DNA of 64,000 nucleotides from Loktanella sp. Alg231-35. GTDB taxonomy: Bacteria; Pseudomonadota; Alphaproteobacteria; Rhodobacterales; Rhodobacteraceae. Position numbers and translations under genes: made by a program. The stretch lies in NCBI RefSeq assembly GCF_900143545.1, contig NZ_FREV01000008.1:85373-149372 (forward strand), given 5' to 3'. The notes below the pieces were generated by a model. The model was not told where the DNA came from. It worked only from the letters and a program-made list of their open reading frames with translations, and did not search any database. Of this stretch, positions 44,625-63,989 are shown piece by piece. Position 1 is the stretch's first letter. Every line of letters begins with the position of its first letter.

Positions 44625-44765
44625 TAGAATACATCCATGCCACATATAGAGTATCTATTGCCTTTAATGGCCATGGGTAGATTTTTCTTGACTTAACAAG
44701 GTGAATCACGGCCTAACTGTCTCAAGTTGCGCAAATAAGCAACATTGAGCGGGAAAAGAGCAACT

Positions 44766-45950
44766 ATGATACAGACAGGACCCATTTCGGCCACGTCCCA
44801 GTCCGATGTCACTGACCAAATGGCGGCACGGTTGAAGACGGCCCTGACCACCCATTTGGAGCAGGTCTATGCGCCGGATCAACGTAAATCACTGCGTTTG
44901 TTTAGTGCGACTGAGACCGCCGATCTTTTGGGCGTATCGGGCCAGTTCCTCCGCAAGCTCCATAGCGATGGCACGTTGACAGAGCCTGCAGTGAACAAAG
45001 GCGGACGGCGGTCCTATTCCGGCGATGAAATCTGGGCGATGCGCCAGGCGTTGGAGGCGGGATCGCGGACGCCGGGCAAATATGTTCCTGGCCGCCGCGA
45101 GGATGACAAGCTGCAAGTCATCCAGTTGATGAATTTCAAAGGCGGATCGGCGAAATCCACGGCAACCATTCACCTTTGTCACTATCTGGCGCTTCAGGGC
45201 TACCGTGTGTTGGCGGTTGATCTGGACCCGCAGGGCAGTTTGACGGGCTTTTGCGGGCTGCAAACCGAGCTAGAATTTGATGGCCCCACCATCTATGACG
45301 CCTTGCGCTACGAAGACCCCCTGCCCTTGTCAGATGTTATCGTCGATACCTATTTCGCGGGTCTCGATCTGGCCCCTGCTCGTCTGATCCTGAGCGAATT
45401 TGAAACCGAAACGGCGGTGAATGCGGGCCGTGGTGCTGCGTTCTTTGAACGACTCTCCAATGCGCTGGAACCGGTCGAGGCCAACTATGACATCGTGATC
45501 ATCGACAGCCCCCCTGCCCTTGGCTTTTTGACGCTGACGGGATTGTTTGCGGCGTCCTCCGTTCTGGTGCCGATGACGCCTAGCATGCTTGATCTGGCCT
45601 CAACCCAACAGTTCATTGAAATGACCTCGGCCTACTTGGGTGTTATTGAAGATACTGGTGTCAACATGGAGCATGATTTCTTCAGCTTCCTGATCACACG
45701 CGATGACCCAAGCGACATTCCCAGCCAGCAGATTGTGTCACTGATGCGTGCGCTGTTTCAGGATCGGATCATTCCTTCAACAGCGCTGCGCAGTACTGCG
45801 ATTGCCGATGCGTCGATGCTCAAGATGTCGATCTACGAGGTCGCGCGAGCAGACATGACGCGCAGCACCTATGACCGTGCGCGCAGCAGTATGGATTCGG
45901 TTGGATCTGACATTGCTAAGTTGGTGCAGCAAGCATGGGGGCGTGGCTGA
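44766..45950 (+). CDS. repA: Plasmid partition ATPase RepA
   Basis: 394 residues from the ATG at 44766 (a TTG at 44745 would add 7). The N-terminal winged-helix part (SATETADLLGVSGQFLRKLHSDGTL) is typical of plasmid ParA type Ia. The deviant Walker A is LMNFKGGSAKSTATIHL, then VLAVDLDPQGSLT and DIVIIDSPPALGFLTLTGL (Walker B). RepA segregates the replicon with RepB and represses the operon. Its TGA overlaps the repB ATG. Confidence 0.95.
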   Translation: MIQTGPISATSQSDVTDQMAARLKTALTTHLEQVYAPDQRKSLRLFSATETADLLGVSGQFLRKLHSDGTLTEPAVNKGGRRSYSGDEIWAMRQALEAGSRTPGKYVPGRREDDKLQVIQLMNFKGGSAKSTATIHLCHYLALQGYRVLAVDLDPQGSLTGFCGLQTELEFDGPTIYDALRYEDPLPLSDVIVDTYFAGLDLAPARLILSEFETETAVNAGRGAAFFERLSNALEPVEANYDIVIIDSPPALGFLTLTGLFAASSVLVPMTPSMLDLASTQQFIEMTSAYLGVIEDTGVNMEHDFFSFLITRDDPSDIPSQQIVSLMRALFQDRIIPSTALRSTAIADASMLKMSIYEVARADMTRSTYDRARSSMDSVGSDIAKLVQQAWGRG

Positions 45951-47110: not shown

Positions 47111-48454
47111 ATGGAACATTTGAGTGACACGCCCCACGGGGCAACTGGACCTACCGGGTTCCAGAATAGTGGTTTAGTGGCAAATGGTTGGCGAAAGGTA
47201 ACGCCCGCGCTCTTGCAAGCTGATCAGCTGGCAGACACCGGCCGCGATCTGGCGGTCGATAAGGGCAGGGCCTTTGTGGCGGTCAAAAGAGTAGGAGCCC
47301 ACATCGGACTGAAATCGGGCGATGTCCTGCTATTGGATACGTTGGGGGCCTTTACCCAAGCGCAGGACTGGGAAGAGGGCAGGCGGCCTATCGTTTGGGC
47401 TTCCAACGCCTATCTGATGGAGCAGACGGGGTTTTCGTTGTCTGCTCTGAAACGCCACGCACGCCGTCTGGCAGAGGCTGGGGTGATTTCGTTTCAGGAT
47501 AGCCCCAATGGCAAGCGTTGGGGCCGCAGGGATGTTGAGGGGGTGATTGTCGAGGCTTACGGCTTTGATTTGTCGCCCATGTCGGCCCGTGCTGAGGAAT
47601 TTGAACAGTTGTTTACGATGCTGAAGGCCGAACGCGCGCTCTGTCAGCGTCTCAAGCGTCAGATCACTGTGGCGCGCCGTATGATCCGAGCGCGCATCGA
47701 GGCGGCCACCAGCGGGGCGCTCAGCGGCCCCTGGGCGCAATTCGCCGGTGTGTTTGAGGACCTATTGAATCGTCTGCCGCGCCGAAACGAGGCGTCAGAG
47801 CGCTTGATGCGGCTTCTGGGGCGGTTCAAAGAGCTGCAAGAGCGCGTCGAAGGGGCCTATCTCAAAGCAGTGCAACCGGATGAGGTTGTGGAGAACACCT
47901 CTGAATTGATGGGGCAATTATCGCATATTACCAAAGATTTGAACCCCAGCGGGGTCATTTCTGACCCTCATATACTAATTACAAATCAACTCGATCCTGT
48001 AACCTGTAATTCCTCTGAAAAAGAGGACGCGGCGGGCGTAGTACCCAATGCACAACCGGAAGACCAGGTTGATAGCGCGATAGAAGATTGGATCGCTGAT
48101 GTGCGCAAAAAACGCGCAGCCCTAGATTTGCCCGTGGTGATGCAAGCCTGTCCTGAGTTCGCGTCATGGGCACGCAATATGGGTGGATATCTCAAGGATT
48201 GGGGCGATTTGCACCGGGTTGCCGGGCAGCTGCGCCCAATGATTGGCATTTCAGAGCAAGCGTGGAACATCGCACAAGACCAACTGGGCAAACAGGTTGC
48301 GACTGCCGCCTTGGCACTCGTGTTTGAAAAGCATTCATCGGGCGAGGTCGCATCACCCGGTGGGTATTTGCGCGGTATGGTCGAAAAAGGCAGGGCAGGG
48401 GAGTTGCATCTGGAACGCAGTTTCTTTGGTCGGTTGAGCGAGACGGCGGCGTGA
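47111..48454 (+). CDS. repC: Replication initiator RepC
   Basis: 447 residues. The N-terminal half has the initiator pattern GRAFVAVKRVGAHIGLKSGDVLLLDTLGAFT, SNAYLMEQTGFSLSALKRHARRLAEAGVISFQDSPNGKRWGRRD, a winged-helix DNA-binding domain. Known role: RepC binds an origin within its own coding sequence. An AT-rich stretch (about 47925-48010) in the C-terminal half is the likely unwinding region. No good ribosome-binding site precedes the ATG, consistent with control by the upstream antisense RNA. Confidence 0.95.
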   Translation: MEHLSDTPHGATGPTGFQNSGLVANGWRKVTPALLQADQLADTGRDLAVDKGRAFVAVKRVGAHIGLKSGDVLLLDTLGAFTQAQDWEEGRRPIVWASNAYLMEQTGFSLSALKRHARRLAEAGVISFQDSPNGKRWGRRDVEGVIVEAYGFDLSPMSARAEEFEQLFTMLKAERALCQRLKRQITVARRMIRARIEAATSGALSGPWAQFAGVFEDLLNRLPRRNEASERLMRLLGRFKELQERVEGAYLKAVQPDEVVENTSELMGQLSHITKDLNPSGVISDPHILITNQLDPVTCNSSEKEDAAGVVPNAQPEDQVDSAIEDWIADVRKKRAALDLPVVMQACPEFASWARNMGGYLKDWGDLHRVAGQLRPMIGISEQAWNIAQDQLGKQVATAALALVFEKHSSGEVASPGGYLRGMVEKGRAGELHLERSFFGRLSETAA

Positions 48455-49048: not shown

Positions 49049-50137
49049 TCACAGACCTGCGGCTTTGGTCAGGTTCACGCGGAAGCGATCTCGTCTGCGT
49101 TGATACCGTCGCGTCATTTCGGCTGAGGCATGGCCAAGTTGCTTTTGCACGTATCGCTCATCGACTTCGGCGTAGGAGGCGAGGCCAGCGCGCAATGAGT
49201 GACCGGAAAAGAGTTTCAGGCGGTCCTTCTCGGGGATGTCCGCCCGAAGGCCCGCATCCAGCATCGTCTTCTTGATGAGGCGCGCCACGTGTTTATCGGA
49301 TAGTCGGGCATCCTGAACCTTGGAGTTGTCCCGTAGCACCCGCCGGAACACTGCCCCATGATCGATTTTGGCGAAGTGCAACCACTGCTCAAGCGCATGC
49401 ACCGGGCAGGAATGGTCTGCGGAGCCGCGCCCGATCTCAGCTTCCTTCCAGCCGGTCTTGGCGTGTTGGATGACGACAGCGCCTTCATCCTCGATTTCAA
49501 TCCAGCCTTTGCCGTCCAAGGTGTCGTCGCGGTTTACATCGAGGGCGACGATCTCAGATCGGCGGAACCCGCCAGCATATCCGAAAAGTAGAATGGCGCG
49601 GTCGCGTAGATCGCGGAGGCTGTGGGACAGTGTGGCCACCATCTCCAGCAGTTCGTCAGGCGCAATTGGTTCTTTCTGAACCGGGGGTTTGGCATGCTGG
49701 CGTTTGATACCGGCCAGCACCGTTGCGATGTGGCGATCCTTGCGATCGAGCATTTGGCCGCGCTGCTGGTAGTTCCACGACAGGCCGGACAAACGGCGTT
49801 CAATAGTACTGACGGAAAAGGCAGGGGAGCCGTCTTGGGGCGCTGCACATTCAGCGATGTAGAGCCCGATCAACTGTGGGTCGGGTGTCAACTGATCCGC
49901 GCCGCGGCGGCGGCACCAGCTCGCAAAGTGCGCCCAGTCCTTGGCATAGGCTTTGTTGGTGTTCTCGGCCGTGGCCTGTTCAGCATAACCGCGCGCGGTT
50001 TCCACGAGGCGTTCCAGCGAGCCGGAGGCGGCCACAGAGTCTGGAATTTGAATGGTCTTCTCAGACGCACGGCCTCTCTCGTCGCCCTGAGCGGCATTTG
50101 AGGGGGCAGGGGGGGCTGAGCGCGGTTTTCCGTTCAT
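49049..50137 (-). CDS. Tyrosine recombinase / integrase
   Basis: 362 residues. N-terminal core-binding SAM-like domain (TARGYAEQATAENTNKAYAKDWAHFASWCRRRG) followed by the catalytic domain with ILLFGYAGGFRRSEIVALDV (first Arg), a beta-hairpin Lys region, SGHSLRAG (His-x-x-Arg), QLGHAS and the terminal Tyr in MTRRYQRR. All catalytic residues appear present. It could resolve plasmid dimers or move an element. A near-perfect dyad lies 54 bp upstream of its start. Confidence 0.9.
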   Translation of the reverse strand: MNGKPRSAPPAPSNAAQGDERGRASEKTIQIPDSVAASGSLERLVETARGYAEQATAENTNKAYAKDWAHFASWCRRRGADQLTPDPQLIGLYIAECAAPQDGSPAFSVSTIERRLSGLSWNYQQRGQMLDRKDRHIATVLAGIKRQHAKPPVQKEPIAPDELLEMVATLSHSLRDLRDRAILLFGYAGGFRRSEIVALDVNRDDTLDGKGWIEIEDEGAVVIQHAKTGWKEAEIGRGSADHSCPVHALEQWLHFAKIDHGAVFRRVLRDNSKVQDARLSDKHVARLIKKTMLDAGLRADIPEKDRLKLFSGHSLRAGLASYAEVDERYVQKQLGHASAEMTRRYQRRRDRFRVNLTKAAGL

Positions 50138-51903: not shown

Positions 51904-51962
51904 GGCTCTTCGCTTTCAATTGGTCGAGCTTTGACTTTCAATCAGTCGGAGATGTGAGCAGG

Positions 51963-52076
51963 TTTTACGTGCTAATGCACAGCAGATTTTACGTGTGTTT
52001 GCACAACATAAAAAACGTGTATACAAACTACGACCTTTACGTGTAAATGAACGACAATGAATACGCGTAAATCACC
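51963..52076. repeat. Five direct repeats, exact 24-bp period
   Basis: 18-bp units start at 51963, 51987, 52011, 52035 and 52059. Units 1-2 are TTTTACGTGCTAATGCAC and TTTTACGTGTGTTTGCAC; unit 4 is CTTTACGTGTAAATGAAC; units 3 and 5 are weaker but keep ACG(T/C)GTA. Consensus TTTTACGTGtaaatgcAC. The array ends 32 bp before the Fic-protein ATG, where an operator for its AbiEi-like domain would be expected; replication iterons are the alternative. Confidence 0.75.
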
Positions 52077-52108
52077 GACAACTACTTTAGGAAAGTGGCC
52101 CTCGTACA

Positions 52109-53653
52109 ATGGCGTCCCCGAACGAAAAACTTGCAGCCTCGCTGGAACTTCTCAAGGAGCGACAAGCGGAACACGGCAACGTCCTACGGAGCAGTGAGCT
52201 CACCCGAACCCACAGAGAAAGGCTCAAGAAGAATGGCTTCCTGAGCGATGTCATTTTGGGTTGGCTGATAGTGACCCGACCACAGGACAAACCGCATGAC
52301 TCGACCTTTTGGTACACATCGTTCTGGGATTTCTGCCGCCGGTACTGCCACGAACGCTATGGTCTGGAGTGGTGCTTCTCGTCTGAGCAATCTTTGCTTT
52401 TGCATGCCGAGAGTACGCACATTCCGAAGCAAGTGATCGTTTGGACACCCAAGGGGTCTGGCAACAACACGGTGCTGCCGTTCGACACCTCGCTGTACGA
52501 CCTCAAGAAGGACCTGCCTCCGAAGAGTGACATCGCAACAAAAGATGGGCTGTTAGTTCTGTCCGTCGAAGCGGCACTGATCAACGTCCCCGAGGCATTC
52601 TACCGATCCTACGCGATGGAGGCGCAAATTGTCTTGAGCGGTTTGAAGAACACAGGTCCTCTGCTTGTCAAATTACTTGATGGTGGTCACGTTTTGGCGG
52701 CAGGGCGGATCGCGGGTGCTTTGCGTCGCGTGGGACGCGATAGTGAGGCTGAAACCATTCTCAAGAAGATGAAGGCCGCTGACTATGATGTCCGGGAAAG
52801 GGATCCTTTCGCAGATGTTGCCCAAGTGATGCCTCTTGAGGTCGGCAGCTCACCACTCGCGGCTAGGATCAATGCGGCATGGGACACCCATCGCGATGCC
52901 ATTGTGGAGATATTTCCGGACGAACCAGGCATGCCAGACGACAAGGATGCTTTTCTTGCGATGATCGACGACATCTATGTCAATGATGCCTATCACTCGC
53001 TGTCGATCGAAGGCTATTCCGTCACCGAGGAGTTGATCGAGCAAGTGCGGCAAGGGTCCTTTGACCCTCTTGGAAACGCGGAACACAGGAAGGATGTCGA
53101 CGCGCTTGCCGCCAGCGGCTACTGGCAAGCCTTTCAAGCGGTCCGCGCTTCGATAGAGAAAATACTATATGGAGAACCGGCGGGGCAGGTGGTTAGACTG
53201 GATCATGACGCGTGGTTTGAAGAGCTGTTCCGCCCGTCTGTGACAGCTGGCATCTTGAAGGCAGGCGCATTGGCGGGCTACCGCAATCATCCCGTCTATT
53301 TACGGGGTTCGAGACACACGCCGCCGCGGGTAGAAGCGATTGCCTCCGGTATGGCGACACTGTTCGAACGGCTCGAGAATGAGGATTCCACAGCAGTTCG
53401 CGCTGTCCTGGGTCACTGGTTGCTTGGTTATGTCCACCCTTATCCTGACGGCAACGGACGGATGGCGCGGTTTTTGATGAACGCAATGTTCGCATCCGGC
53501 GGCTACTCTTGGACAGTCATCGATGTTGATCATCGAGCAGCATACATGTCGGCGCTGGAATGCGCGAGTGTTGGGGGAGACATCGTACCGTTCGCTCGGT
53601 TGGTTGAGGATCGAATGCGATGGTCAGGATCGCTTGCAACGCATCAAAACTGA
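52109..53653 (+). CDS. Fic-domain protein with AbiEi-like N-terminus
   Basis: 514 residues. Residues 1-220 look like the type IV antitoxin AbiEi pattern: a winged helix (NVLRSSELTRTHRERLKKNGFLSDV, then GWLIVTRPQDKP) and a following helical/strand domain. Residues about 250-514 are a Fic domain with the active site HPYPDGNGRMAR (443-454). Before it, S297-LSI-E301-G302 matches the (S/T)xxxE(G/N) inhibitory helix of class II Fic proteins, so AMP transfer should be self-inhibited. The fusion could join toxin-like adenylylation to DNA-binding autoregulation through the repeats upstream. First gene of the probable defence island. Confidence 0.85.
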   Translation: MASPNEKLAASLELLKERQAEHGNVLRSSELTRTHRERLKKNGFLSDVILGWLIVTRPQDKPHDSTFWYTSFWDFCRRYCHERYGLEWCFSSEQSLLLHAESTHIPKQVIVWTPKGSGNNTVLPFDTSLYDLKKDLPPKSDIATKDGLLVLSVEAALINVPEAFYRSYAMEAQIVLSGLKNTGPLLVKLLDGGHVLAAGRIAGALRRVGRDSEAETILKKMKAADYDVRERDPFADVAQVMPLEVGSSPLAARINAAWDTHRDAIVEIFPDEPGMPDDKDAFLAMIDDIYVNDAYHSLSIEGYSVTEELIEQVRQGSFDPLGNAEHRKDVDALAASGYWQAFQAVRASIEKILYGEPAGQVVRLDHDAWFEELFRPSVTAGILKAGALAGYRNHPVYLRGSRHTPPRVEAIASGMATLFERLENEDSTAVRAVLGHWLLGYVHPYPDGNGRMARFLMNAMFASGGYSWTVIDVDHRAAYMSALECASVGGDIVPFARLVEDRMRWSGSLATHQN

Positions 53654-53759: not shown

Positions 53760-56642
53760 GTGGGGTACGGTTTGAACCAATCGAGAATAGCATCTGTATC
53801 GACACTTGATGCACAGCAGCTGCTTCGCATCGAAGCCGTGCATCGAGGTTATCTTTTTCAGCACCTCTATGCCGCTCAGTGCCTACTTTGTGTCGGAGCA
53901 CTTTCTGCGAACGCTGTTACTGTGGAGAGCGACGAAGATGTTGAGGTGCTTCTCGACGGAAAACATCTGTACGTTCAGGTCAAATATCGCAAAAGCAAGC
54001 TGGCATGGAGTGACATTGAGAGTGCTGTATCCCGCTTCGAAGAACTGCGTGGCGCTCATCAGACCGGTGAGCGGCCGAGTACGGCAGAATTTGTCATCGT
54101 CAGCAATGCACCTCCGAATGGCCCCCTTGCCAAACGGATATCTGGGGCAGATTGGCCAGCAGACGTGCATGTGGATTGGCCCGAAGGCTCAGAAGATGGG
54201 CGGACCCTCCCACCGCCGTCGGCGTCACTCATCGATGCCATTGAGGCTACACGCGCCTTGGCTCAATCTCTACCATTCGCCAAGCTCAACCCGGACACGC
54301 TTGTGTGGAAACTGGCCGGAATCATCATGTTGGCCGCCACTGGGGAGAACAGCGGTCTCAATCATATCTTCAGTGCCGAGGACTTGCCGGACCTATTCGA
54401 GCAATTGGTATTGCAGTTGCAGGACTTGCCAGCTCCGCCCGCGCACTACCGAATACAACAAGATGAGCCAGAGCTTCTTACGGAAGAGCGAGTCCGTCTG
54501 ATCGTTGGATATTCAGGCGCGGGCAAGACCTCCTGGCTGGCACAATCCGCACAGCATGCAGCGGGACGGCTAGTATATCTCGACGTTGCCGATCTTCCTG
54601 GAGCAGGCCTCGCCAGCGTGGTGGCGAGGGAAGTTGCAGGCCGCCTTTTTTCAGAGGGACAACAATTAGGTCAGATCCTTCTTCCAGGTGCATCAGGACG
54701 AGAAATGCTACAAATCCTGTCACGCCGCATCGCCGAAAGCGGCGAGATCGTAACTGTTGCGTTAGACAATGCACATTGTCTTTCAGGTGATGATCTCATC
54801 GGTGTTGTGCAGGCGGCCTCCGAAGTTCAGTTTATCCTCCTTTGCCGTCCTGAGGGCGAAATTAGCGCCCTTGAGTCCCTGTTGGGCGCAAGCCGCGAAA
54901 GCTTGGCGGGCTGGGCATCTGATACAGTTGCGGCAGCGGCCCTGGATGCCGGTTGCAAAGCAGACGCAGCTGATTGTCAGCGGTTAATCGATCTCACTGG
55001 TGGTCTTCCACTTTACGTACTCAACGCCTTGGTGATTACTAAAGCGGACTATGATGGACGCTTGAGGAAATTCTGCAAGGATCTTGCGGCGTCAGCTCAA
55101 ACCCGGGAGATCTCCCAGGAGGTTATTCTTGGGCGCGTTTTTGATGGACTTCCAACTGTTACAGCGAAGGTGGCGGAGCTTTTCAGCCTTTGCGACGCAC
55201 CGATCACGCGTGAAGAGGCAGCCGTATATGTCGCCGCAGCGGGAGGACCAGACAAAGCCAATTTCGTAGCAGCGCTTCGTCATCTATTTGGGCTGGGGCT
55301 GTTGCAGATTTTCGTTGATGACAAAGTCAAAATTCATGATGCTGCACGAGTGGTTGGCAAGGGGCGCCTTGTCCTCGAGGGCGCAGAGCCGCTGAAAAGG
55401 TATCGATTGGCCCTGAGAGCCATTGTCCAGGCCAGTCTTCTAAAAGACTGGAGTCCGGCCAAGCTATCTCTTTTTCTGCGGCTTAGCGGAGACGTAGGCC
55501 GCTTGGACGTGCTCGTTGAAATGGCAACGGACGAGTTGTTTCATGAAATGGGTGTATGGCCCGAGATCGAAGCTTTTCTTGAGCAAGGAGTTCAAGACGA
55601 AACCATCCCGCCGGAGCAGCGAATCATGGCGCTTGATGGTCTGGCCTTCGCACATCTGAAGTCTGGCTCAGATCGCGCCGTGGCCTGGTTGGATCAAATG
55701 GACCAACTAATTGAGACACATGATTTAGGGGCGGAAGAAATCCTTCGCGTCGGAATGAAGCGGATGATTTATCTCGCCCAAAACGGTGATCGGAAAGGTT
55801 CTGAGCAATTGATCGAAAGTCTGGGCAAAGCTGTCAAGGACGCCTCTCCCGGTCATCGACGGGTATACACGTATAACGTTGCCACTGCGGAGTTGGCATT
55901 TGGTGACAGCGCTGCGGCAGTCAGGCGAATACATCCCCTCATTAAGGAGTACTATGCACTGCTTGGTCTGTCCCCACAGCAGGTTATGGGACGAAATGCG
56001 CCGGAACTTAAGCTTCTAGTGAAACAGAAACCGTTTCCGACTGACGATATCAAGCATTTGGCTGACTCTCTAGACGTGTTGGCGAAGGCATCAGACGCAG
56101 AAGGAGAGTTTTCACCCTTGGCTCGTGTCCATGCGTTGAAATTCTACGATTTGGCTCGGGCGCCCGAGTCCATGTTCCGAGTTGGTCAAGATCTTGTTGA
56201 TCAGTTTATCGGGCGCAATGACTTCGACGGCGCCTTGAACATAATGGAGAGTATTCTTCTGCCTCAACTTCAGCAACTGAAGCTTGCGGAGTATCTCATC
56301 CCCGTTCGCTCGCAACACGCCGTTGTTCTTGCATATTGCGGAAGGTTTAGCGAAGCCGAAGCTGAGATGGAGCGACTGCGGCCTTATGAAGCCGGCCTTG
56401 CTGATCTCGGTAGAAGCGAACTGAATAACCAAAGAGAATTGATAGCACAGATCGGAAAGTATGGCCCTCCTCCGAAATGGGTTCCGGAATTCGGTTTGCT
56501 GGATACTCTTGCCCAACGTATGCAGGGACAGAAGCAAATCGATGCTTACCGTCCAGAAGCTTCTGCTGCAAAAAAAGTAGGACGCAATCAGCCGTGCCCA
56601 TGCGGCTCGGGTAGGAAGTACAAAAAATGCCATGGGCGCTGA
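53760..56642 (+). CDS. Nuclease-STAND NTPase-SEC-C defence-like protein
   Basis: 960 residues; the GTG at 53760 is used, though a TTG at 53772 is possible. Residues 25-140: GYLFQHLYAAQCLL, VESDEDVEV and YVQVKYR (Q73-V-K75), a PD-(D/E)xK nuclease pattern as in DUF4297/Cap4-type effectors. Residues 245-560: NTPase with P-loop VGYSGAGKTS (249-258) and a Walker B-like TVALDNAH (D336), then a winged-helix-like region, as in STAND proteins. Residues 570-920: helical repeats resembling TPRs. The last 20 residues are a textbook SEC-C zinc motif (PCPCGSGRKYKKCHG). By analogy with Avs/STAND immunity the C-terminal half would sense and the N-terminus would cut DNA. Shorter than typical Avs proteins. Confidence 0.8.
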   Translation: MGYGLNQSRIASVSTLDAQQLLRIEAVHRGYLFQHLYAAQCLLCVGALSANAVTVESDEDVEVLLDGKHLYVQVKYRKSKLAWSDIESAVSRFEELRGAHQTGERPSTAEFVIVSNAPPNGPLAKRISGADWPADVHVDWPEGSEDGRTLPPPSASLIDAIEATRALAQSLPFAKLNPDTLVWKLAGIIMLAATGENSGLNHIFSAEDLPDLFEQLVLQLQDLPAPPAHYRIQQDEPELLTEERVRLIVGYSGAGKTSWLAQSAQHAAGRLVYLDVADLPGAGLASVVAREVAGRLFSEGQQLGQILLPGASGREMLQILSRRIAESGEIVTVALDNAHCLSGDDLIGVVQAASEVQFILLCRPEGEISALESLLGASRESLAGWASDTVAAAALDAGCKADAADCQRLIDLTGGLPLYVLNALVITKADYDGRLRKFCKDLAASAQTREISQEVILGRVFDGLPTVTAKVAELFSLCDAPITREEAAVYVAAAGGPDKANFVAALRHLFGLGLLQIFVDDKVKIHDAARVVGKGRLVLEGAEPLKRYRLALRAIVQASLLKDWSPAKLSLFLRLSGDVGRLDVLVEMATDELFHEMGVWPEIEAFLEQGVQDETIPPEQRIMALDGLAFAHLKSGSDRAVAWLDQMDQLIETHDLGAEEILRVGMKRMIYLAQNGDRKGSEQLIESLGKAVKDASPGHRRVYTYNVATAELAFGDSAAAVRRIHPLIKEYYALLGLSPQQVMGRNAPELKLLVKQKPFPTDDIKHLADSLDVLAKASDAEGEFSPLARVHALKFYDLARAPESMFRVGQDLVDQFIGRNDFDGALNIMESILLPQLQQLKLAEYLIPVRSQHAVVLAYCGRFSEAEAEMERLRPYEAGLADLGRSELNNQRELIAQIGKYGPPPKWVPEFGLLDTLAQRMQGQKQIDAYRPEASAAKKVGRNQPCPCGSGRKYKKCHGR

Positions 56643-56722
56643 TTAAACCTACAATGAAAGACATTTTTCGTTTTGGCGAAGAGATTCAGCCTTAGGCAAG
56701 TGCTGGCGCACCTGAGCTTTGG

Positions 56723-57610
56723 TCAGAGTATTTCCAAAGGTGAAAATTGTACTAGCGCTTCGGTTACACCAAGCTTTGAAAAGCGCGACTTCATTTCGGG
56801 CAGATTGTTGTAATAGCTAATTGTCCAACGGGTTGAAGGATTGGTGCAGGTTACAATTTTCTCAAAATACTGTGCATCAACGTCCGCGAGTGAATGGCCA
56901 AGTACCCAAATTTCAGAGATATTTCGCAACCCAGAAAAAAATGCCCGGTTGCTCTCAATGATTTTTGCTGTCGGCTTGAAGGTCGCGGCAAAATAATCGT
57001 CGATTAGCTGGTATCCACCAGCCACACGGGTATCTGTATCTTCATCAATCTGTCCCGAGAGCAGTTCATTAGATTGTCGCTCCCAACCGTGCCCTAGTAC
57101 GACTTGCTTGTCAGGGCTGCCAGAACTGCCGTGGATATGCAGTATATTGGCGTCGGGCACTCCGTAAAGTATCTGCAGAGTTGACGTATAGTTGAAGTTC
57201 AGAAAGCGCGCGCCGGGGTCGATGCAGTGCACCAATGGCACAGTGCGCGGTGCGGGTATTGGGAGGCCGCGTATCCATTCAGCGAAGCGCATTCGCATCT
57301 TTGTTGCAAGACCTTCGACGATCTGCTCGATCTCGTACTCGAAATTGTGATGGTCCGCGTCACTCCAATCATCGGCGCCATAAGAGACCAGGAAGTTTGT
57401 TGCATAATCAATGACCTGATCAGAGTCGAATGATGCTAGGCGATCTTCGAACTCATTCCAGAAGTCTTTGTCAAAGAAGAGATATTCGTCAATAAGACGA
57501 TGCACATCCGGGTCTTCAGCTTCTAAATATCGACCAAAATCGCTATACCGTGAAGGTATCCCATGATGAAGGTCGAAGCCATTTCCAATAATGATGAGCC
57601 GGTGGGTCAT
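56723..57610 (-). CDS. AbiH family abortive-infection protein
   Basis: 295 residues from the ATG at 57610. MTHRLIIIGNGFDLHHGIPSRYSDF is the AbiH N-terminal hallmark; ARFLNFNYTSTLQILYG, ILHIHGSSG and a late EIWVLGHSLADVDAQYF are further conserved blocks. AbiH causes phage abortive infection in lactococci; the mechanism is unknown. Last gene of a four-gene leftward operon; its start overlaps the upstream stop by 4 bp. Converges with the STAND gene. Confidence 0.88.
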   Translation of the reverse strand: MTHRLIIIGNGFDLHHGIPSRYSDFGRYLEAEDPDVHRLIDEYLFFDKDFWNEFEDRLASFDSDQVIDYATNFLVSYGADDWSDADHHNFEYEIEQIVEGLATKMRMRFAEWIRGLPIPAPRTVPLVHCIDPGARFLNFNYTSTLQILYGVPDANILHIHGSSGSPDKQVVLGHGWERQSNELLSGQIDEDTDTRVAGGYQLIDDYFAATFKPTAKIIESNRAFFSGLRNISEIWVLGHSLADVDAQYFEKIVTCTNPSTRWTISYYNNLPEMKSRFSKLGVTEALVQFSPLEIL

Positions 57611-58665
57611 GACTTCTGGGCTCGCCTGTGCAGTGCGGTTACATCCCCTATCCAATCGTCTAATGCCGCCACGACGATCTGACAAAGCCGCGCAAATTCT
57701 CGGATTTCGCTCCCCAGCAACTCTACGGTTTCACCTAACCGCGCATTTCGCGCGTTCTCGGCAAATTTTGCGTCAACCACACCGAGATTGTGCCCGATGA
57801 CGTGCCTTTTCTGGATGTTGAGTTCGAGCGCTTCCTGCTCCGCATCCGATAGTCCGTTGAACGGGTCGATGTTGAACTCTGCATAGCGTTTCTGAGCCTT
57901 TTCAACATTTTGAAAGTCGTTTCGGATGGCCTTGGTGGGAGCCGCACGGCTGGGGTCCAGAGAGACTTTGTGCGCATAAACCACCTTCTGAGCAGCTTCG
58001 AACGCGGTCAGAACGTCTTCGTGCGCGTTTCCCAGAAGGCGGTAGGCAAGTTCAGCTTGCTCTTCTCCCAGCCCTTCAGCAATCGAGACTTGCCGCCCAA
58101 CCAACTCAACCTCTCGCGAGAAGTGCAGTGAAACGTTCGGGGCACCACAATCGGGACAGTAAAGGGCAATCGCGTAGACACCGTAGTCGCGACCGCAGCA
58201 ATCGCAGACTAAGAGACGCATGAGATCGCGTCTTCCAAATTGCGGCCTCGGGCGGCGGGTATGCGAGCCCGGTTTGTAAGTGATGCCGCCTCGGCTCTTT
58301 CTCGCAACTCCCTTGAGCATATCTGAGACGGCGTCTTGGGCATCTTGCATGGCAGCATGCTTGACGATCTTGATTGCAGCTTCCTTGTCCTTCGGATGCG
58401 TGAATTCGTCATGGTCACCGACGATGCCACTGTAAGGGCAGATTGTTCTTGAGCTGCCGGGTTGCTGCTTCATTCGCCTGTACTTGGACTCCGCGATTGA
58501 GATTTCGGTCACTCGTTCCCCAAGGACGAAGTGTCTAGGATGGGCCTCCTCATTGGGTGAGTAGCGATATACCCGGCCCTCAGGTGTTTGCGGCAGCGGA
58601 ACGGATAGCTGCATCTTCGACCGAGTGCCGCCGGTCTGAAATCTCTTGAGGTTCTTCATCTTCAT
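57607..58665 (-). CDS. Zinc-ribbon protein with a HEPN-like motif
   Basis: 352 residues, family not recognised. A Cys4 zinc ribbon is visible: VCDCCG ... YCPDCG near residues 170-190, with another possible metal site at ICPYSG and H-E-F-TH near 75-90. The C-terminal 140 residues are helical and contain R287-HVIG-H292 followed by NLGVVD; R-x4-H then N-x-G-x-VD is the style of HEPN-domain RNases. If real, it would be an RNase-type toxin or sensor paired with AbiH. Overlaps both neighbours by 4 bp. Confidence 0.65.
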   Translation of the reverse strand: MKMKNLKRFQTGGTRSKMQLSVPLPQTPEGRVYRYSPNEEAHPRHFVLGERVTEISIAESKYRRMKQQPGSSRTICPYSGIVGDHDEFTHPKDKEAAIKIVKHAAMQDAQDAVSDMLKGVARKSRGGITYKPGSHTRRPRPQFGRRDLMRLLVCDCCGRDYGVYAIALYCPDCGAPNVSLHFSREVELVGRQVSIAEGLGEEQAELAYRLLGNAHEDVLTAFEAAQKVVYAHKVSLDPSRAAPTKAIRNDFQNVEKAQKRYAEFNIDPFNGLSDAEQEALELNIQKRHVIGHNLGVVDAKFAENARNARLGETVELLGSEIREFARLCQIVVAALDDWIGDVTALHRRAQKS

Positions 58666-58907
58666 CGGGCGGCTCCTCCAGCTTTCACTTGATAGCGCTT
58701 CGACAGCTTCTCATTCACGAGATTGGACAGCGCGACTTTCGCTTCAGCATCACCCCTGTACCAATCGAGCCGACGCCGACCGTGAGTTCCACGCCGACCC
58801 CACTGTCTTTCGACGCCAATCTCTCCAAATAGACTCTCTGTTAGCTGAACGCAGTAAAACCTATCCATATTCGCGTCCGAGTCCACGCGGGTCATATCAA
58901 TCCTCAT
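58662..58907 (-). CDS. WGR-domain protein
   Basis: 81 residues, essentially one WGR domain: RFYCVQLTESLFGEIGVERQWGRRGTHGRRRLDWY. WGR domains (named from this Trp-Gly-Arg) bind nucleic acid in PARPs and bacterial regulators. A free-standing WGR in an operon with AbiH suggests DNA- or RNA-end sensing. Its end overlaps the zinc-ribbon gene and its start lies within the end of the WYL gene. Confidence 0.85.
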   Translation of the reverse strand: MRIDMTRVDSDANMDRFYCVQLTESLFGEIGVERQWGRRGTHGRRRLDWYRGDAEAKVALSNLVNEKLSKRYQVKAGGAAR

Positions 58908-59715
58908 CTATCTCCTCCTCAGACATAGCCACGTACGCGCAACCAACACACTCAAGTCGCGGGTTCTCTTGATCGAGCCCCCAACGACGCTTTGTGTAGA
59001 ATTCGAGCGGCTTGCGAACGCGGATTTCGAGGAATTCGTCTTCAAATCCGAACTCGATCCGAACGACCCGCATTTGGTCTTGCGTCAGGTCGCGATGGGG
59101 GCTCAGCCTCAGTACGGCCCAGGTAAACCAATCATCGTCCTTCGGGACTTCTTCAGCAACACGGCGCTCTTCGAAAGACCGAGTTGGATCGATGCGAGAT
59201 GGAATAAAGTCGCGAAAGCCTTGACGGGTATAGCACCAGGCGCGCAGATGGAGGCGCACCCCGTCTGAGGCGAAGCGTAATGGCGCAATCCAACGGGTCT
59301 CCGGCTCTGGGTCGCGCATCGATTGGTAGACGATCTTGATCGCCTCCCCAGCGAGCAGAGCGCGATAGAGCGGCCTGAAGACACGTACGTTCTGAGTGCG
59401 CTGAAGGTCGGGCAAGACATCGTAGAAGGCGCGTTTCTTTCCGCTGAGCAGCTCCTCGAGCTCGTCAGTTGTGGCCCGCCCCGTCAGCCGTGTGAAGCGC
59501 TCCGTCGTGTGGTACTTTTTCGAGGAGGCGTCATATTTGAGTGCGTTGGTTTCTGAAGCGTGCAGATAGGTCTTGAAATCCAGAGCGGCCTGAGGGTTCG
59601 AGATCCCGAAGCGCTCTATCAACGATCCGCGCGTCGCCGCACCGTCCCAGAAGAGCAGGCGGTCGAGGTATTCTAGTCGCTGTTTTTGGGCATGTTTTAG
59701 ATCGTCAAAGGCCAT
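58897..59715 (-). CDS. WYL-domain transcriptional regulator (CapW/BrxR-like)
   Basis: 272 residues. Winged helix at the N-terminus (RLEYLDRLLFWDGAATRGSLIERFGISNPQAALDFKTYL), WYL domain in the middle (AIKIVYQSMRDPEPETRWIAPLRFASDGVRLHLRAWCYTRQGFRDFIPSRI) and a C-terminal WCX-like part. This layout is that of CapW/BrxR, which repress defence operons and respond to nucleic-acid signals. First gene of the WYL-WGR-zinc ribbon-AbiH operon and divergent from sbcD; it probably controls its own promoter and perhaps that of sbcD. Confidence 0.88.
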   Translation of the reverse strand: MAFDDLKHAQKQRLEYLDRLLFWDGAATRGSLIERFGISNPQAALDFKTYLHASETNALKYDASSKKYHTTERFTRLTGRATTDELEELLSGKKRAFYDVLPDLQRTQNVRVFRPLYRALLAGEAIKIVYQSMRDPEPETRWIAPLRFASDGVRLHLRAWCYTRQGFRDFIPSRIDPTRSFEERRVAEEVPKDDDWFTWAVLRLSPHRDLTQDQMRVVRIEFGFEDEFLEIRVRKPLEFYTKRRWGLDQENPRLECVGCAYVAMSEEEIDED

Positions 59716-59729
59716 TACTAGAATCTATC

Positions 59730-59759
59730 TTGACTCTGTGGTTTTGTCCATATTAAAAT
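59730..59759 (+). promoter_or_regulatory. Candidate sbcD promoter
   Basis: TTGACT (59730-59735) and TAAAAT (59754-59759), 18-bp spacer, 28 bp before the ATG. Overlaps the divergent promoter, so the two may exclude each other. Confidence 0.5.
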
Positions 59760-59785
59760 TATACGTATAAAAAATAACGGTGCAA
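59758..59785 (-). promoter_or_regulatory. Promoter of the WYL-AbiH operon with overlapping palindrome
   Basis: On the minus strand: TTGCAC (59785-59780), 16-bp spacer, TATAAT (59763-59758), a near-consensus sigma-70 promoter. A perfect 12-bp palindrome TTATACGTATAA (59759-59770) covers the -10, a likely operator for WYL autorepression. Confidence 0.6.
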
Positions 59786-59787
59786 AC

Positions 59788-60933
59788 ATGAGAGTTCTCC
59801 ATACAGCAGACTGGCATCTGGGAAAGACCTTGCGGGGCGTCTCACTTCACGAGGATCACGCACATGTTCTCGACCAGGTGTTCAAGGCCGTCGTGGACGA
59901 GGGCATCGAGGTTCTGCTTATCGCTGGCGATGTCTACGACAAAGCGTCCCCATCCGAAGCCGCAATGAAGCTCTATAGTGATTTCCTAGAGCGCGTTCAC
60001 GAACAGACTGATGCGGCCATCGTTGTCATCGCGGGTAACCACGACTCCGGCCAACGTCTTGGGACCGCGTCCAAGCTTTTCGATCGCCGACGTATTCTGG
60101 TCCGTGGCCCGATCGAGCGAGATGAGACGCCGCTGGTCCTAGAGGATGAACATGGCAAGATCGCGATCTCGGCGCTTCCCTACGGAGAGATCTATGCCGC
60201 CCGTCGCGCCTTTGAGGCAGAAGACATCCGGTCGCCGGAGGACGTTCTCCGGGCGCAGATCGAGGCCGCAAGGACGCGCGTGCCAGATGATGCTCGCTGG
60301 ATCGTCGTGGCCCATGCCTTCGTAACAAACTGCCAACCGACGGAGACTGAGAGGCGGCTGTCGGTCGGTACGGTGGAGACCGTGTCGGCAGCGATTTTTG
60401 AAGATGCGAACTACGTTGCGCTCGGCCACCTTCACCGTCCGCAAACCGCGGGTGGGAACACGATCCGATACAGCGGCTCTCCTTTGGCCTTCGGGTTCGA
60501 TGAAGCGGGCACGACGAAATCGATGACAGTCTTTGACCTTGACGGGCAGGGGCAGGTGATCAATCTGAAAACGGTGGACTTCGAGCCTTTGAGACATGTC
60601 CGTGAGGTCAAGGGGCTTCTGGAGGATCTCGTTTCTGAGGCGAAGGCTAATCCGAGCGAAGACTACATCCGGGCGATTCTTCGGGACGACGGGGCCTTAA
60701 TCGAGCCGGCCGCTCAGCTGCGGCCACACTATCCGAACATTCTGCAGACCTTGCGAGAGAAAAAGCAGGACCTCGTAATGAGTAGCGCCGGCCGGGCGCA
60801 GTCAAGGCTCGACGATCCCGTCGGCGTCATCGGTGAATTCCTGACCTATGTCCGCGGCGAAGGCGCAACGGAACATGAGGAGGGCGTCGTAAAGAGTGTG
60901 CTCGACCGCCCGGTGCTGGAGGACGCGAAATGA
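59788..60933 (+). CDS. sbcD: Exonuclease subunit SbcD (Mre11-like)
   Basis: 381 residues with the metallophosphoesterase motifs in order: HTADWHLGKTL (D8, H10), AGDVYDKASPSE, VIAGNHDSG and a late YVALGHLHRPQ. With SbcC it forms the SbcCD/Mre11-Rad50 nuclease that cuts hairpins and DNA ends. The stop overlaps the sbcC start by 4 bp. Confidence 0.95.
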   Translation: MRVLHTADWHLGKTLRGVSLHEDHAHVLDQVFKAVVDEGIEVLLIAGDVYDKASPSEAAMKLYSDFLERVHEQTDAAIVVIAGNHDSGQRLGTASKLFDRRRILVRGPIERDETPLVLEDEHGKIAISALPYGEIYAARRAFEAEDIRSPEDVLRAQIEAARTRVPDDARWIVVAHAFVTNCQPTETERRLSVGTVETVSAAIFEDANYVALGHLHRPQTAGGNTIRYSGSPLAFGFDEAGTTKSMTVFDLDGQGQVINLKTVDFEPLRHVREVKGLLEDLVSEAKANPSEDYIRAILRDDGALIEPAAQLRPHYPNILQTLREKKQDLVMSSAGRAQSRLDDPVGVIGEFLTYVRGEGATEHEEGVVKSVLDRPVLEDAK

Positions 60934-63900
60934 GGCCAATCCGACTGACGATGACAGCGTTCGGCCCATATGCCGGAACCGAGGTCGTTGAATTCACGGC
61001 GGCGCTCGATGCCGGGATCTTTGGCATTTACGGCGAAACCGGCGCGGGAAAGACCACGATCTTCGATGGTATCTCCTTCGCCCTGTTTGGACAGTCCTCC
61101 GGGGCAGAGCGCAGCGCAGAGGACATGATTTGCCATCACGCACACGCAACCGATATCACCAAGGTCGAACTCGTCTTCGATCTCGGCAACGAACGATATG
61201 TCGTTCAACGCGTTCCCAAGCAGCAGCGCGCGGCGCTACGTGGATCAGGCACCACGACCGAACCGCACCAGGCTTACCTTTTTCGGGCGACCGGCATGCC
61301 TTTGGCTGAAATTGCAGGCGATAATCTCGGTGACGTCGTGGCCGAGAAACAGGTCAACAAGGTCGATCCCGAGATAGAGGCGCTTCTGGGCTACAATGCT
61401 GCCCAGTTCCGTCAGATCGTGCTGTTGCCCCAGGGCGACTTCCGCAAAATCCTGACCGCGCCAAGCGATGAGCGCTCCCCGATCCTGAAACGCCTGTTCG
61501 ACGTCCAGATGTACGAACGCTTTGCGGATCGCATCAAACGCGATGCCGCCGACCTCTACCGTCAAATCAATGATGACCGCGTCCGGCGCGACACGCATCT
61601 GGGTAATCTGAGCGAAGAACAACTGGCCGACGAGATTGGTTCGATGGGCGAAGAGGTCTCTTCACTCGAGACTACCGTGAAAGCAGAGACCGAAACGCTG
61701 GTGCAATGTCAGAAGGCTTTGTCTGCTGGAGAGGGTCTGGCAGAAAAGTTCGAAGCGAGGGGAGCGGCTGAGACAGAGAAGGCAACGCTCGAGTCTGCAA
61801 GTGAGGTGGTTGAGGAGACCAAGTCCCGTCTTGCAAAGGCGCGTGCGGCCCAAATTGTTCTGGTCGCTGAGTCTGCGATGCGAGCTGCGGGCGAGGAGGC
61901 CGGTGCCGCTCAGACCCGTCACGCTACAGCTAAGGTAAGTTTGTCTTCTGCTCAATCGGCCCTGAGCGTGGCCCAAGAAGCGCTCAATCGGACGGAGCAG
62001 CAGAAGGATAATCGCGACGCTGCCCATGCAAAGGTGCTGGAATTGGAGCGTTTCGAAAAGACGCTTGGCCAATCCCGCACCCTCCTAGCGGATCTCGAGG
62101 CGGCGAAACTGGCGACGAAGTCGGCGGTTGAGAAGCAGGCGACGGCAGAACGCAACCGAACGAACGCCGAGCAAACACTCACGACGCTCCGCAACCTCCA
62201 GAAAGAGCAGCCGGCGCACGTGCGCACCCTTCAAGAGGCAGGCAATGTTCTGGCGGCGGTGGAACGTGAGGCCGAGGCTTTAGGTCGTTATGAAACGGCC
62301 AAGTCCAGGCGCGGTCTGCAGGCAGGTGAAGTCGACCGCTTGCAGACCGAGTATGAAAGGCGGAGTGCCCATCTCGAAGTCTGCAAGACCGCCCTGGAAC
62401 GCGCGGAACAGGATTTGACCGAGATACAGGCGCTCCACGTGGCGAGGAAACTTCTTCCCGCAGAGCCCTGTCCGGCTTGTGGATCGCTTGACCACCCCAA
62501 TCCAGCGATCGGCGATCCCGAGCGCCGCGGTCGCCATGACCAGTTCGAGCAGGCGTCGCGGGAGCTTCGTAGCGCCGAACGCGATGAGATCGAAGCGAAG
62601 ACCGCACTGGCTGCGGCGAGGTCATCTCTGACCGAAAGGCAGACCGAACTTGATGCCCTCGACCGTCCGGAACGGGATCGGCAGAGCCTCGATCCGGTTC
62701 TGGCAGAAGCACGTGACCGGAGGATTGCACTGGAAGCGGACGCCCGATTTGTCGATCTCGAAAGCAAGATCGCCACGGCCGAAACGGCCGCCGGGGAGAC
62801 AACTTCCCATTATGAGCACGCGCGCCAGGAGGTTTCTGAGGCCAGAGACGCGGAGACACGCGCGCAGACTTCCTACGACACCCTTCTGCGAGATGTGCCC
62901 GAGAATTGGCGGCAAGGCGGTGCCTTGGCCTCAGCCCTGTCAGCCGCTGTTTCTGCGCAAGGCGAACTCGTCGCTGCCCACGAGACGGCGATAAACGGTG
63001 AAAAGGCGGCCGCTGTCGCCCTTAGTGCCGCAGAGCAAGGTGAGATGAGTGCTGTCGCAGATGTCGACCGAACAGCCCAAGCATTTACAAACGCCCAGGC
63101 GGAGTTCACCGAGAGGCTTGGAACGGCGGGGCTGGATGAGGCCGGGTTAAAAGTTGCAAAGGCTGACGTCGCGCAGTCCGACGCGCTCGAGGAACAGATC
63201 AACTCATTCAACGAGCGCGTTGCTGCCAACAAGGCCCAACTCGAACGACTGGCGAACGAAATCGGTGATCGAAGCCCTCCAGATGTCGAGGCGTTGACGG
63301 CTGCTAAAGAATCCGCACAGTCGAAGCTGGAAACCAGTCAGCAGACTCACACTCGCTTGCAGCGCGACTTGGAAGCAAAGCTCGAAACGCAACGAAAAGT
63401 CGAAGCGCTTTCCGCCCGTATCACTACCCTCGAGGCGGAGTACGGTCCGGTTGGCGGCCTGGCAGACCTGGTCAACGGCAATAATGAGCGGAAGGTTCGG
63501 CTCCCGGACTTTGCAATTGCCGCGATGTTCGATGAGGTTCTCGTCGCCGCCAATCAACGGCTCGCTCCCATGACGGGCGGACGTTACCAGCTCCTCCGCC
63601 CGGAAGATGCTGTTGGAGGGCGACAGAAACGTGGGTTGGATATCGCCGTCTTCGACGCCAACACCGAGAAGTCGCGACCCACAAAGACGCTGTCCGGCGG
63701 CGAGGGATTTCAGGCCTCGCTTGCCCTTGCCCTGGGTCTCTCCGATGTCGTTCAGCAGAACAGTGGTGGAATCAAGCTCGATGCGATTTTCATCGATGAG
63801 GGCTTCGGCACCTTGGACGAAGACACTCTGAACACCGCGCTTGAGACGCTTTACGAACTGACCAACGACAAGCGGTCGGTGGGGCTGATCTCCCATACCG

Positions 63901-63989
63901 AACAGGTGAAATCCATGATCACCGGCGGGTTTGACATCGAAGTCACGCCGTCCGGTTCCCACATCCACACGCGGAGATCCGCGGCATAA
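60930..63989 (+). CDS. sbcC: SbcC ATPase (Rad50-like)
   Basis: 1019 residues. Walker A FGIYGETGAGKTTIFDGISFALFG near the N-terminus, long coiled coils, the zinc hook C-PA-C in PAEPCPACGSLDHP near residue 514, then ABC signature KTLSGGEGFQASLALALGL and Walker B AIFIDEGFGTLDED. Complete within the window; only 11 bp follow, beginning CCAAAGGAG, which may be the ribosome-binding site of another gene. A plasmid copy next to AbiH and a WYL regulator suggests a defence or plasmid-maintenance role. Confidence 0.95.
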   Translation: MRPIRLTMTAFGPYAGTEVVEFTAALDAGIFGIYGETGAGKTTIFDGISFALFGQSSGAERSAEDMICHHAHATDITKVELVFDLGNERYVVQRVPKQQRAALRGSGTTTEPHQAYLFRATGMPLAEIAGDNLGDVVAEKQVNKVDPEIEALLGYNAAQFRQIVLLPQGDFRKILTAPSDERSPILKRLFDVQMYERFADRIKRDAADLYRQINDDRVRRDTHLGNLSEEQLADEIGSMGEEVSSLETTVKAETETLVQCQKALSAGEGLAEKFEARGAAETEKATLESASEVVEETKSRLAKARAAQIVLVAESAMRAAGEEAGAAQTRHATAKVSLSSAQSALSVAQEALNRTEQQKDNRDAAHAKVLELERFEKTLGQSRTLLADLEAAKLATKSAVEKQATAERNRTNAEQTLTTLRNLQKEQPAHVRTLQEAGNVLAAVEREAEALGRYETAKSRRGLQAGEVDRLQTEYERRSAHLEVCKTALERAEQDLTEIQALHVARKLLPAEPCPACGSLDHPNPAIGDPERRGRHDQFEQASRELRSAERDEIEAKTALAAARSSLTERQTELDALDRPERDRQSLDPVLAEARDRRIALEADARFVDLESKIATAETAAGETTSHYEHARQEVSEARDAETRAQTSYDTLLRDVPENWRQGGALASALSAAVSAQGELVAAHETAINGEKAAAVALSAAEQGEMSAVADVDRTAQAFTNAQAEFTERLGTAGLDEAGLKVAKADVAQSDALEEQINSFNERVAANKAQLERLANEIGDRSPPDVEALTAAKESAQSKLETSQQTHTRLQRDLEAKLETQRKVEALSARITTLEAEYGPVGGLADLVNGNNERKVRLPDFAIAAMFDEVLVAANQRLAPMTGGRYQLLRPEDAVGGRQKRGLDIAVFDANTEKSRPTKTLSGGEGFQASLALALGLSDVVQQNSGGIKLDAIFIDEGFGTLDEDTLNTALETLYELTNDKRSVGLISHTEQVKSMITGGFDIEVTPSGSHIHTRRSAA

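Follow-up and report, generated by a model that had tools for sequence, protein, structure and literature searches.

The array of five 24-bp direct repeats just upstream of the Fic gene is very probably the operator of that gene, bound head to tail by the Fic protein, which would thus repress its own expression. Four observations form the basis for this: the array is conserved with the gene, the N-terminal region of the protein is predicted to have an AbiEi fold, residues of the protein covary with bases of the repeats, and promoter-like pairs lie in the arrays of many relatives. From these we infer physical binding, with one protein per unit, and repression. The repeats and the protein residues that would read them appear, from sequence comparison, to have changed together across many bacteria.

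The array extends over 120 bp, at positions 51963–52082 of the window (the whole stretch of 64,000 nucleotides that was analysed), and is made up of gapless direct repeats on the plus strand: unit 1, TTTTACGTGCTAATGCACAGCAGA (51963..51986); unit 2, TTTTACGTGTGTTTGCACAACATA (51987..52010); unit 3, AAAAACGTGTATACAAACTACGAC (52011..52034); unit 4, CTTTACGTGTAAATGAACGACAAT (52035..52058); and unit 5, GAATACGCGTAAATCACCGACAAC (52059..52082). The starts at 51963, 51987, 52011, 52035 and 52059 follow one another in steps of exactly 24 bp, as an earlier sequence-only reading had described, and the distance that it gave to the gene is also correct, since 32 bases separate the end of the last 18-mer (52076) from the ATG (52109). 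Its phasing of 24 bp stands, whereas its unit of 18 bp does not: the unit kept among relatives is the full 24 bp, and the shorter version omitted part of the conserved 3′ half (ACrrCA, unit positions 18–23). Units 3 and 5 deviate (AAAACGTG; ATACGCG). The homologues L008 and L010 have a close Fic gene and different sequence upstream, with four units like units 2–5 of the window, units 3, 4 and 5 being retained; a unit similar to unit 1 is found 3′ of ScpB in related plasmids without the window's Fic family.

At a lag of 24, 60 of 96 positions in the 120-bp array match, compared with a maximum of 45 in 100,000 shuffles. When every 120-bp segment of the 64 kb was ranked for periodicity at lags of 10–60, the array came first (z 8.0 versus 5.3 for the best elsewhere). 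Tandem Repeats Finder at a score of 40 did not include the array among its repeats, presumably because the units are too divergent, and a repeat finder returned a single 12-nt inverted match inside the array (83% complementary). An exact search of the 3.9-Mb genome for ACGTG units paired at the 24-bp step gave three hits, each of them inside the array.

The contig holding the array and the Fic gene is 184,831 bases long. The window has repABC-type plasmid genes (RepA at 44745, RepB at 45935 and RepC at 47111), followed by a tyrosine recombinase (49049–50137, minus strand), a DUF1403 gene (from 50294), ScpB (from 51244), the array and the Fic gene. Fic gene and array are flanked by ScpB on one side and by the gene for a 960-aa protein (SEC-C and weak AAA_22 matches) on the other.

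We collected 110 homologous loci, whose best-matching piece is 40–100% identical to the window's protein. These came from named genomes (the best 80 of 566 confirmed loci), viral contigs (five near-full-length relatives taken among the 80 loci listed), the window's own family (hits at E ≤ 1e-60 in 11 of 394 genomes) and class (hits at E ≤ 1e-80 in 13 of 385), both counts including the window's genome itself, and, for further homologues, plasmids. The named-genome homologues belong to Alpha- and Gammaproteobacteria, Acidobacteria, Bacteroidetes, an actinobacterium, cyanobacteria and others, with many metagenome bins. At least 150 bases of upstream sequence were present in 109 of the 110 loci, and 96 upstreams were non-redundant at 70% upstream identity, the fragment L019 being excluded. 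The check proposed in the sequence-only reading, whether the array lies upstream of homologous Fic genes, had a positive outcome: lag-24 periodicity, with significance assessed by shuffling, reached p ≤ 0.01 in 91 of the 96. The best lag was 24 in 75 upstreams, 48 in 16 and another value in 5; in control regions, lag-24 significance was found in 0/96 inside the gene and in 2/95 for the 150 bases further upstream. Periodicity at this lag was non-significant in five upstreams (L053, L088, L119, L127 and L132). In the distant relatives L132, L223 and L226, the best upstream lag is 23 rather than 24. The start codon is ATG in 90 of the 96 homologues; L009, L012 and L013 have ATC at the Fic start, and L012 and L013 also have an in-frame stop four codons before it; these three may use a rare start codon or begin translation further downstream.

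The sequence-only reading had named plasmid iterons as its other interpretation. On that view, a protein acting in replication or partition of the repABC plasmid would bind the repeats to control copy number or segregation. The array does share its segment with the genes for RepA, RepB, RepC and ScpB, the Fic gene adjoins repABC in L008 and L009 as well, and two units persist beside ScpB in some plasmids without the window's Fic family. This reading is nevertheless extremely unlikely, since the array accompanies the Fic gene in the 91 upstreams, including that of L084, a 4.2-Mb record titled chromosome, the only pieces seen without this gene comprise two units, the exact pattern places the array once in the genome, and the repeat core covaries with Fic residues, as set out below.

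Among relatives, the unit of the Fic operator candidate takes the form nATAa-[5-bp core]-tnnnnnnACrrCAn, in which the core (unit positions 6–10) differs between loci. The shared unit model strongly favours ATA at positions 2–4, C at 7, T at 8, C at 19, C at 22 and A at 23, with A or G at 20–21; core positions were included in the model used to set the phase, which biases the phase to the consensus, and the core was masked only in the validation run. Arrays have three to five units in 81 of 87 loci. The 88 loci with a usable call have the cores ACTTG (31 loci), ACTAA (9), GCTTG (9), GCTAA (8) and ACGTG (5), the last being that of the window, and the remaining 26 are spread over 17 further cores. 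Pairs of ACTTG units at 24 bp gave nine matches in eight of the 385 genomes of the class, five of them (in four genomes) directly upstream of Fic homologues and four elsewhere; the reversed pattern gave about 26 matches by hand count. In the 394 genomes of the family, ACGTG pairs had 18 matches in 15 genomes, of which only five are clear units by their letters: three belong to the window and two to a single other genome, where they adjoin ScpB. The surroundings of ACGTG pairs at five loci (L021, L022, L023, L027 and L035) look coding-like in L022 and L027 and ambiguous in L021.

The Fic gene (52109..53653, plus strand) encodes a protein of 514 residues in which an AbiEi-type antitoxin region (1–237) is fused to a class II Fic domain. 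Codons 1–55 (52109..52273) are predicted to form a winged helix-turn-helix and codons 66–230 (52304..52798) a nucleotidyltransferase-like second domain of the AbiEi type. The AF2 models have a mean pLDDT of 93.6 at full length and 96.0 for residues 1–237. With the model of residues 1–237, the best Foldseek matches are two AbiEi chains (6y8q, E 3.3e-5, TM 0.42/0.48; the other, E 6.3e-4), with TM-scores of 0.35–0.48 across the AbiEi matches, and the top VIA-align matches are Rv2827c (1zel; Z 10.7, rmsd 4.6, 220 residues aligned) and then AbiEi (6y8q; Z 9.2, rmsd 5.7, 177 aligned). On these models, residues 1–237 are predicted to form a whole AbiEi-type antitoxin fold, winged helix and nucleotidyltransferase-like domain together. 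By sequence, a Pfam scan of 45 members matched Fic in all 45 (E 4.3e-12 for the window's protein) and VbhA in seven (best E 0.008), and the 13 families listed at E ≤ 1 included no AbiEi model. Within the winged helix, R33, R36 and R38 are near-invariant (85, 83 and 85 of 87 loci).

Both class II Fic motifs are present. The catalytic motif is intact at codons 443–454 (HPYPDGNGRMAR; 53435..53470, plus strand), reading HPYPDGNGR at 443–451, with Y for F in HPFx[DE]GN[GK]R. The class II inhibitory motif has the general form [ST]xxxE[GN], and SLSIEG is found N-terminal to the catalytic motif at codons 297–302 (52997..53014). From its motifs, this class II domain is predicted to be an AMP-transferase and is probably self-inhibited.

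Individual residues of this protein covary with individual core bases of the array. Dependent change was assessed by likelihood across 405 protein columns (195 in residues 1–235 and 210 in 236–514), on a tree of 87 loci made from the Fic domain only. Nine loci (L018, L044, L046, L049, L088, L106, L127, L132 and L133) were left out: L018 has a truncated frame, and the other eight have units that are weak or too few in number. Residue 119 against unit position 6, the first core base, gave a likelihood ratio of 51.7, the highest of the 405 columns (runner-up 17.2); the maximum in 292 null simulations of independent traits, with rates of the analyst's choice, was 19.0. Asparagine at 119 is paired with A in 54 of 56 loci, histidine with G in 8 of 9, lysine with G or C in 11 of 11, and phenylalanine with T in 2 of 2. 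Reduced to a rule for N119 and A6, there are 54 loci with both, 27 with neither and 6 exceptions (L045, L073, L107, L120, L131 and L134). Residue 132 against position 10, the fifth core base, gave 25.2, again the highest of 405 (runner-up 16.7), and leucine at 132 is paired with G in 53 of the 54 loci that have it. Residue 118 covaries weakly with position 8, the third core base (15.0, the highest of 405 and barely above the runner-up at 14.0); it is also highest for position 9 (16.7 versus 15.5), where the separation is unclear. In the window's protein these residues are G118 and N119 (52460..52465, plus strand) and L132 (52502..52504, plus strand).

Could the array instead be bound by a separate regulator encoded elsewhere, with the covariation a by-product of shared ancestry? 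Related proteins do share core and residues within clades, and phylogeny confounded the distance-based tests. We think this highly improbable, given that the tree-aware test singles out one column, far above the others and the simulated traits, and that the pairing of residue 119 with base 6 changes in many parts of the tree: by parsimony, residue 119 changes 14 times, base 6 changes 16 times and the two jointly only 19 times, the smallest excess of 324 columns. Nor, in a rough clustering, was any ORF cluster within 1.5 kb common to more than 4 of 80 loci, other Fic-gene frames apart. A parsimony co-change test for position 6 ranked column 131 first, with 119 outside the top eight. A first distance-based scan, together with inspection, had pointed to residue 119. 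In that scan the best 12-residue window was 433–444, in the Fic domain, ahead of 127–138, and columns 437 and 440 were also high; these Fic-domain signals are taken as clade markers. The Fic domain retained signal given residues 1–66 (0.40). That the winged-helix residues carry the core specificity was also considered and found no support in the distance test, in which residues 1–66 had no signal once the Fic domain was accounted for (partial r 0.02, p 0.40).

Rules derived from the 87 loci were applied to 15 extra plasmid relatives, in which the unit phase was set with the core masked; several of these are near training loci (for example L229 and L233 to L055; L232 to L124). The core base was predicted correctly in 11 of 15 at position 6, 11 of 15 at position 8 and 10 of 15 at position 10. 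After removal of the four loci lacking a confident array (L223, L224, L226 and L228, by a cut at an array score under 20 that was set after the output was known), the counts were 9 of 9 with a rule at position 6, 9 of 11 at position 8 and 9 of 10 with a rule at position 10; there is no position-6 rule for residue M, found in L220 and L232, and one locus has no position-10 rule.

In the predicted structure, strands 108–113 and 120–123 form a beta hairpin (codons 108–123; 52430..52477, plus strand), the proposed core reader, with residues 118–119 in its loop, and residue 132 lies in the next strand (127–133). All three covarying residues thus fall, in the model, in one beta region of the second AbiEi domain, outside the winged helix. 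The sequence-only reading had pointed to the AbiEi-like winged helix of the Fic protein as the nearest candidate binder; conservation of the array, the predicted fold and the covariation favour the AbiEi-like part indirectly, whereas residues 118, 119 and 132 lie beyond the winged helix. We propose that one Fic protein would occupy each 24-bp unit, several being aligned head to tail, and that the beta region of the second domain would read the locus-specific 5-bp core while the winged helix would probably read the constant ACrrCA half-unit. DNA binding by the winged helix itself is suggested by its modelled fold.

The arrays of many relatives also contain promoter-like elements. Sigma-70-like pairs with up to three mismatches are found on the gene's strand in 63 of 88 upstreams (L018 included), in 46 of those inside the array, compared with 31 of 88 on the reverse strand and a shuffle mean of 29.8. 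In 22 loci, a TTGACT-like hexamer at unit position 3 is followed, after a spacer of 18 bp, by a TATACT-like hexamer at the same position of the next unit, which makes the 24-bp step a natural −35 to −10 distance; a second register, at unit position 18 with a 17-bp spacer, is present in 7 loci. The promoter scan found no promoter-like site in the window's own array, with 0.2 expected. Because −35 and −10 elements can fall in successive units, occupancy of the array would shut off transcription, and the amount of Fic protein would set its own synthesis.

The promoter-like elements also bear on whether the repeats might act as RNA, as a leader or a type III-like antitoxin RNA, rather than as DNA. 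Type III systems have tandem repeats just upstream of the toxin gene, a layout resembled by this array just 5′ of a toxin-like gene. With promoter-like elements inside many relatives' arrays, much of the array would stay untranscribed, and its predicted RNA folding is barely better than that of shuffles (z −0.80; 42 of 200 shuffles fold equally well or better), so that a role as RNA is hardly credible.

Some units occur without this Fic family. Two ACGTG units lie 3′ of ScpB in the plasmids L002, L003 and L004, none of which has the window's Fic family, and two-unit pieces beside ScpB are also present in L023 and L035, two contigs of one genome. The gene after the units in L002 and L003 is a Fic gene of another family, the DUF4172 type; L004 has no annotated gene in the 1.7 kb left before the record's start. 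The similarity of other DUF4172-type Fic genes to L002 sets in only near the close of the second unit: among the 20 records listed (86 found), 2 extend into the units and 18 begin at query positions 73–76. We read the two-unit pieces, from these sequence matches, as probable remnants of a replaced Fic module. An array conserved without the Fic gene, which the sequence-only reading had held to refute its proposal, was seen only as two-unit pieces in three plasmids and one further genome. The DUF4172-type Fic gene is itself preceded by TATAG-type inverted repeats that run up to its ATG (L002, 1850–1930; L003, 4105–4185), perhaps a separate self-operator.

The closest known systems are AbiEi of S. 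agalactiae and Rv2827c of M. tuberculosis, which share the two-domain fold by model. According to PMC7319586, cooperativity is positive for AbiEi, which binds two 23-bp inverted repeats, and negative for Rv2827c, which binds four; both repress themselves as monomers on the repeats, and the second domain of AbiEi antitoxins is described as an antitoxicity domain whose core fold has no assigned function and as required for autoregulation. Cooperative binding, which the sequence-only reading drew from the perfect phasing, is plausible for the window's array. In that account the repeats are inverted pairs of 23 bp and the toxin is a nucleotidyltransferase encoded by a separate gene, whereas here they are gapless direct repeats of 24 bp with a locus-specific core and the second half of the protein is a fused Fic domain. 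As for membership of type IV AbiE, no AbiEii nucleotidyltransferase adjoins the window's Fic gene, whose neighbours are ScpB and the 960-aa protein, and the 23-bp inverted-repeat operator is replaced by direct repeats of 24 bp.

CccR of Yersinia pseudotuberculosis is likewise a class II Fic protein, and the available part of PMC9755527 shows it repressing its own promoter near −35/−10; for the window's Fic protein, self-repression is what we infer. CccR, as characterised there, uses a C-terminal helix-turn-helix and binds as a dimer to two 10-bp inverted repeats 26 bp apart, with no N-terminal AbiEi module and no tandem array described in that part. With these precedents, there is already a Fic protein known to repress itself and an AbiEi module known to bind repeats. 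In the accessible portion of PMC8562856, AbiEi and Fic systems are separate pairs, and among the matches listed (titles and abstract starts of open-licence papers) none described this array or an AbiEi–Fic fusion that combines direct repeats with a covarying core. The Fic domain and catalytic motif are shared by FICD, SoFic and further Fic proteins of solved structure, whose sequence matches cover the Fic half only (within profile positions 267–502).

Self-repression through the array would define a widespread single-gene, toxin–antitoxin-like family with an operator readable from sequence in most members. It names the residues expected to read given bases, would give the second AbiEi domain a testable role in sequence recognition, and offers, in the Fic family, a natural series of repressor–operator pairs that differ in specificity. 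A bolder and rather doubtful extension is that the nucleotidyltransferase-like domain of AbiEi-type proteins serves as a head for reading DNA by a simple code, in which residue 119 specifies core base 1, residue 118 base 3 and residue 132 base 5, and that assembly of a head-to-tail Fic filament on the operator also holds the enzyme inactive. If so, the antitoxin would be the operator DNA itself, and active Fic would be set free when the plasmid is lost.

Two further features of the window lie on either side of the array and gene. The interval from ScpB to the array contains a conserved stretch of roughly 40 bp (CTTTCAATTGGTCG...CTTTCAATCAGTCG, 51912–51951), which is matched in 23 records of plasmids (Rhizobium, Agrobacterium, Sulfitobacter, Salipiger and others), many of the matches falling where no gene is listed; L005 and L006 have it without the array, and it is possibly a recombination or regulatory site. 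A defence-like region (53760–63989) lies 3′ of the Fic gene, comprising the 960-aa protein (with a weak LmuA-type match beside the SEC-C match), one match each to AbiH and WYL, and two paired genes for a nuclease and an ATPase whose matches are of the DndD, PbeC and LmuB types; we take this pair to resemble SbcD/SbcC.
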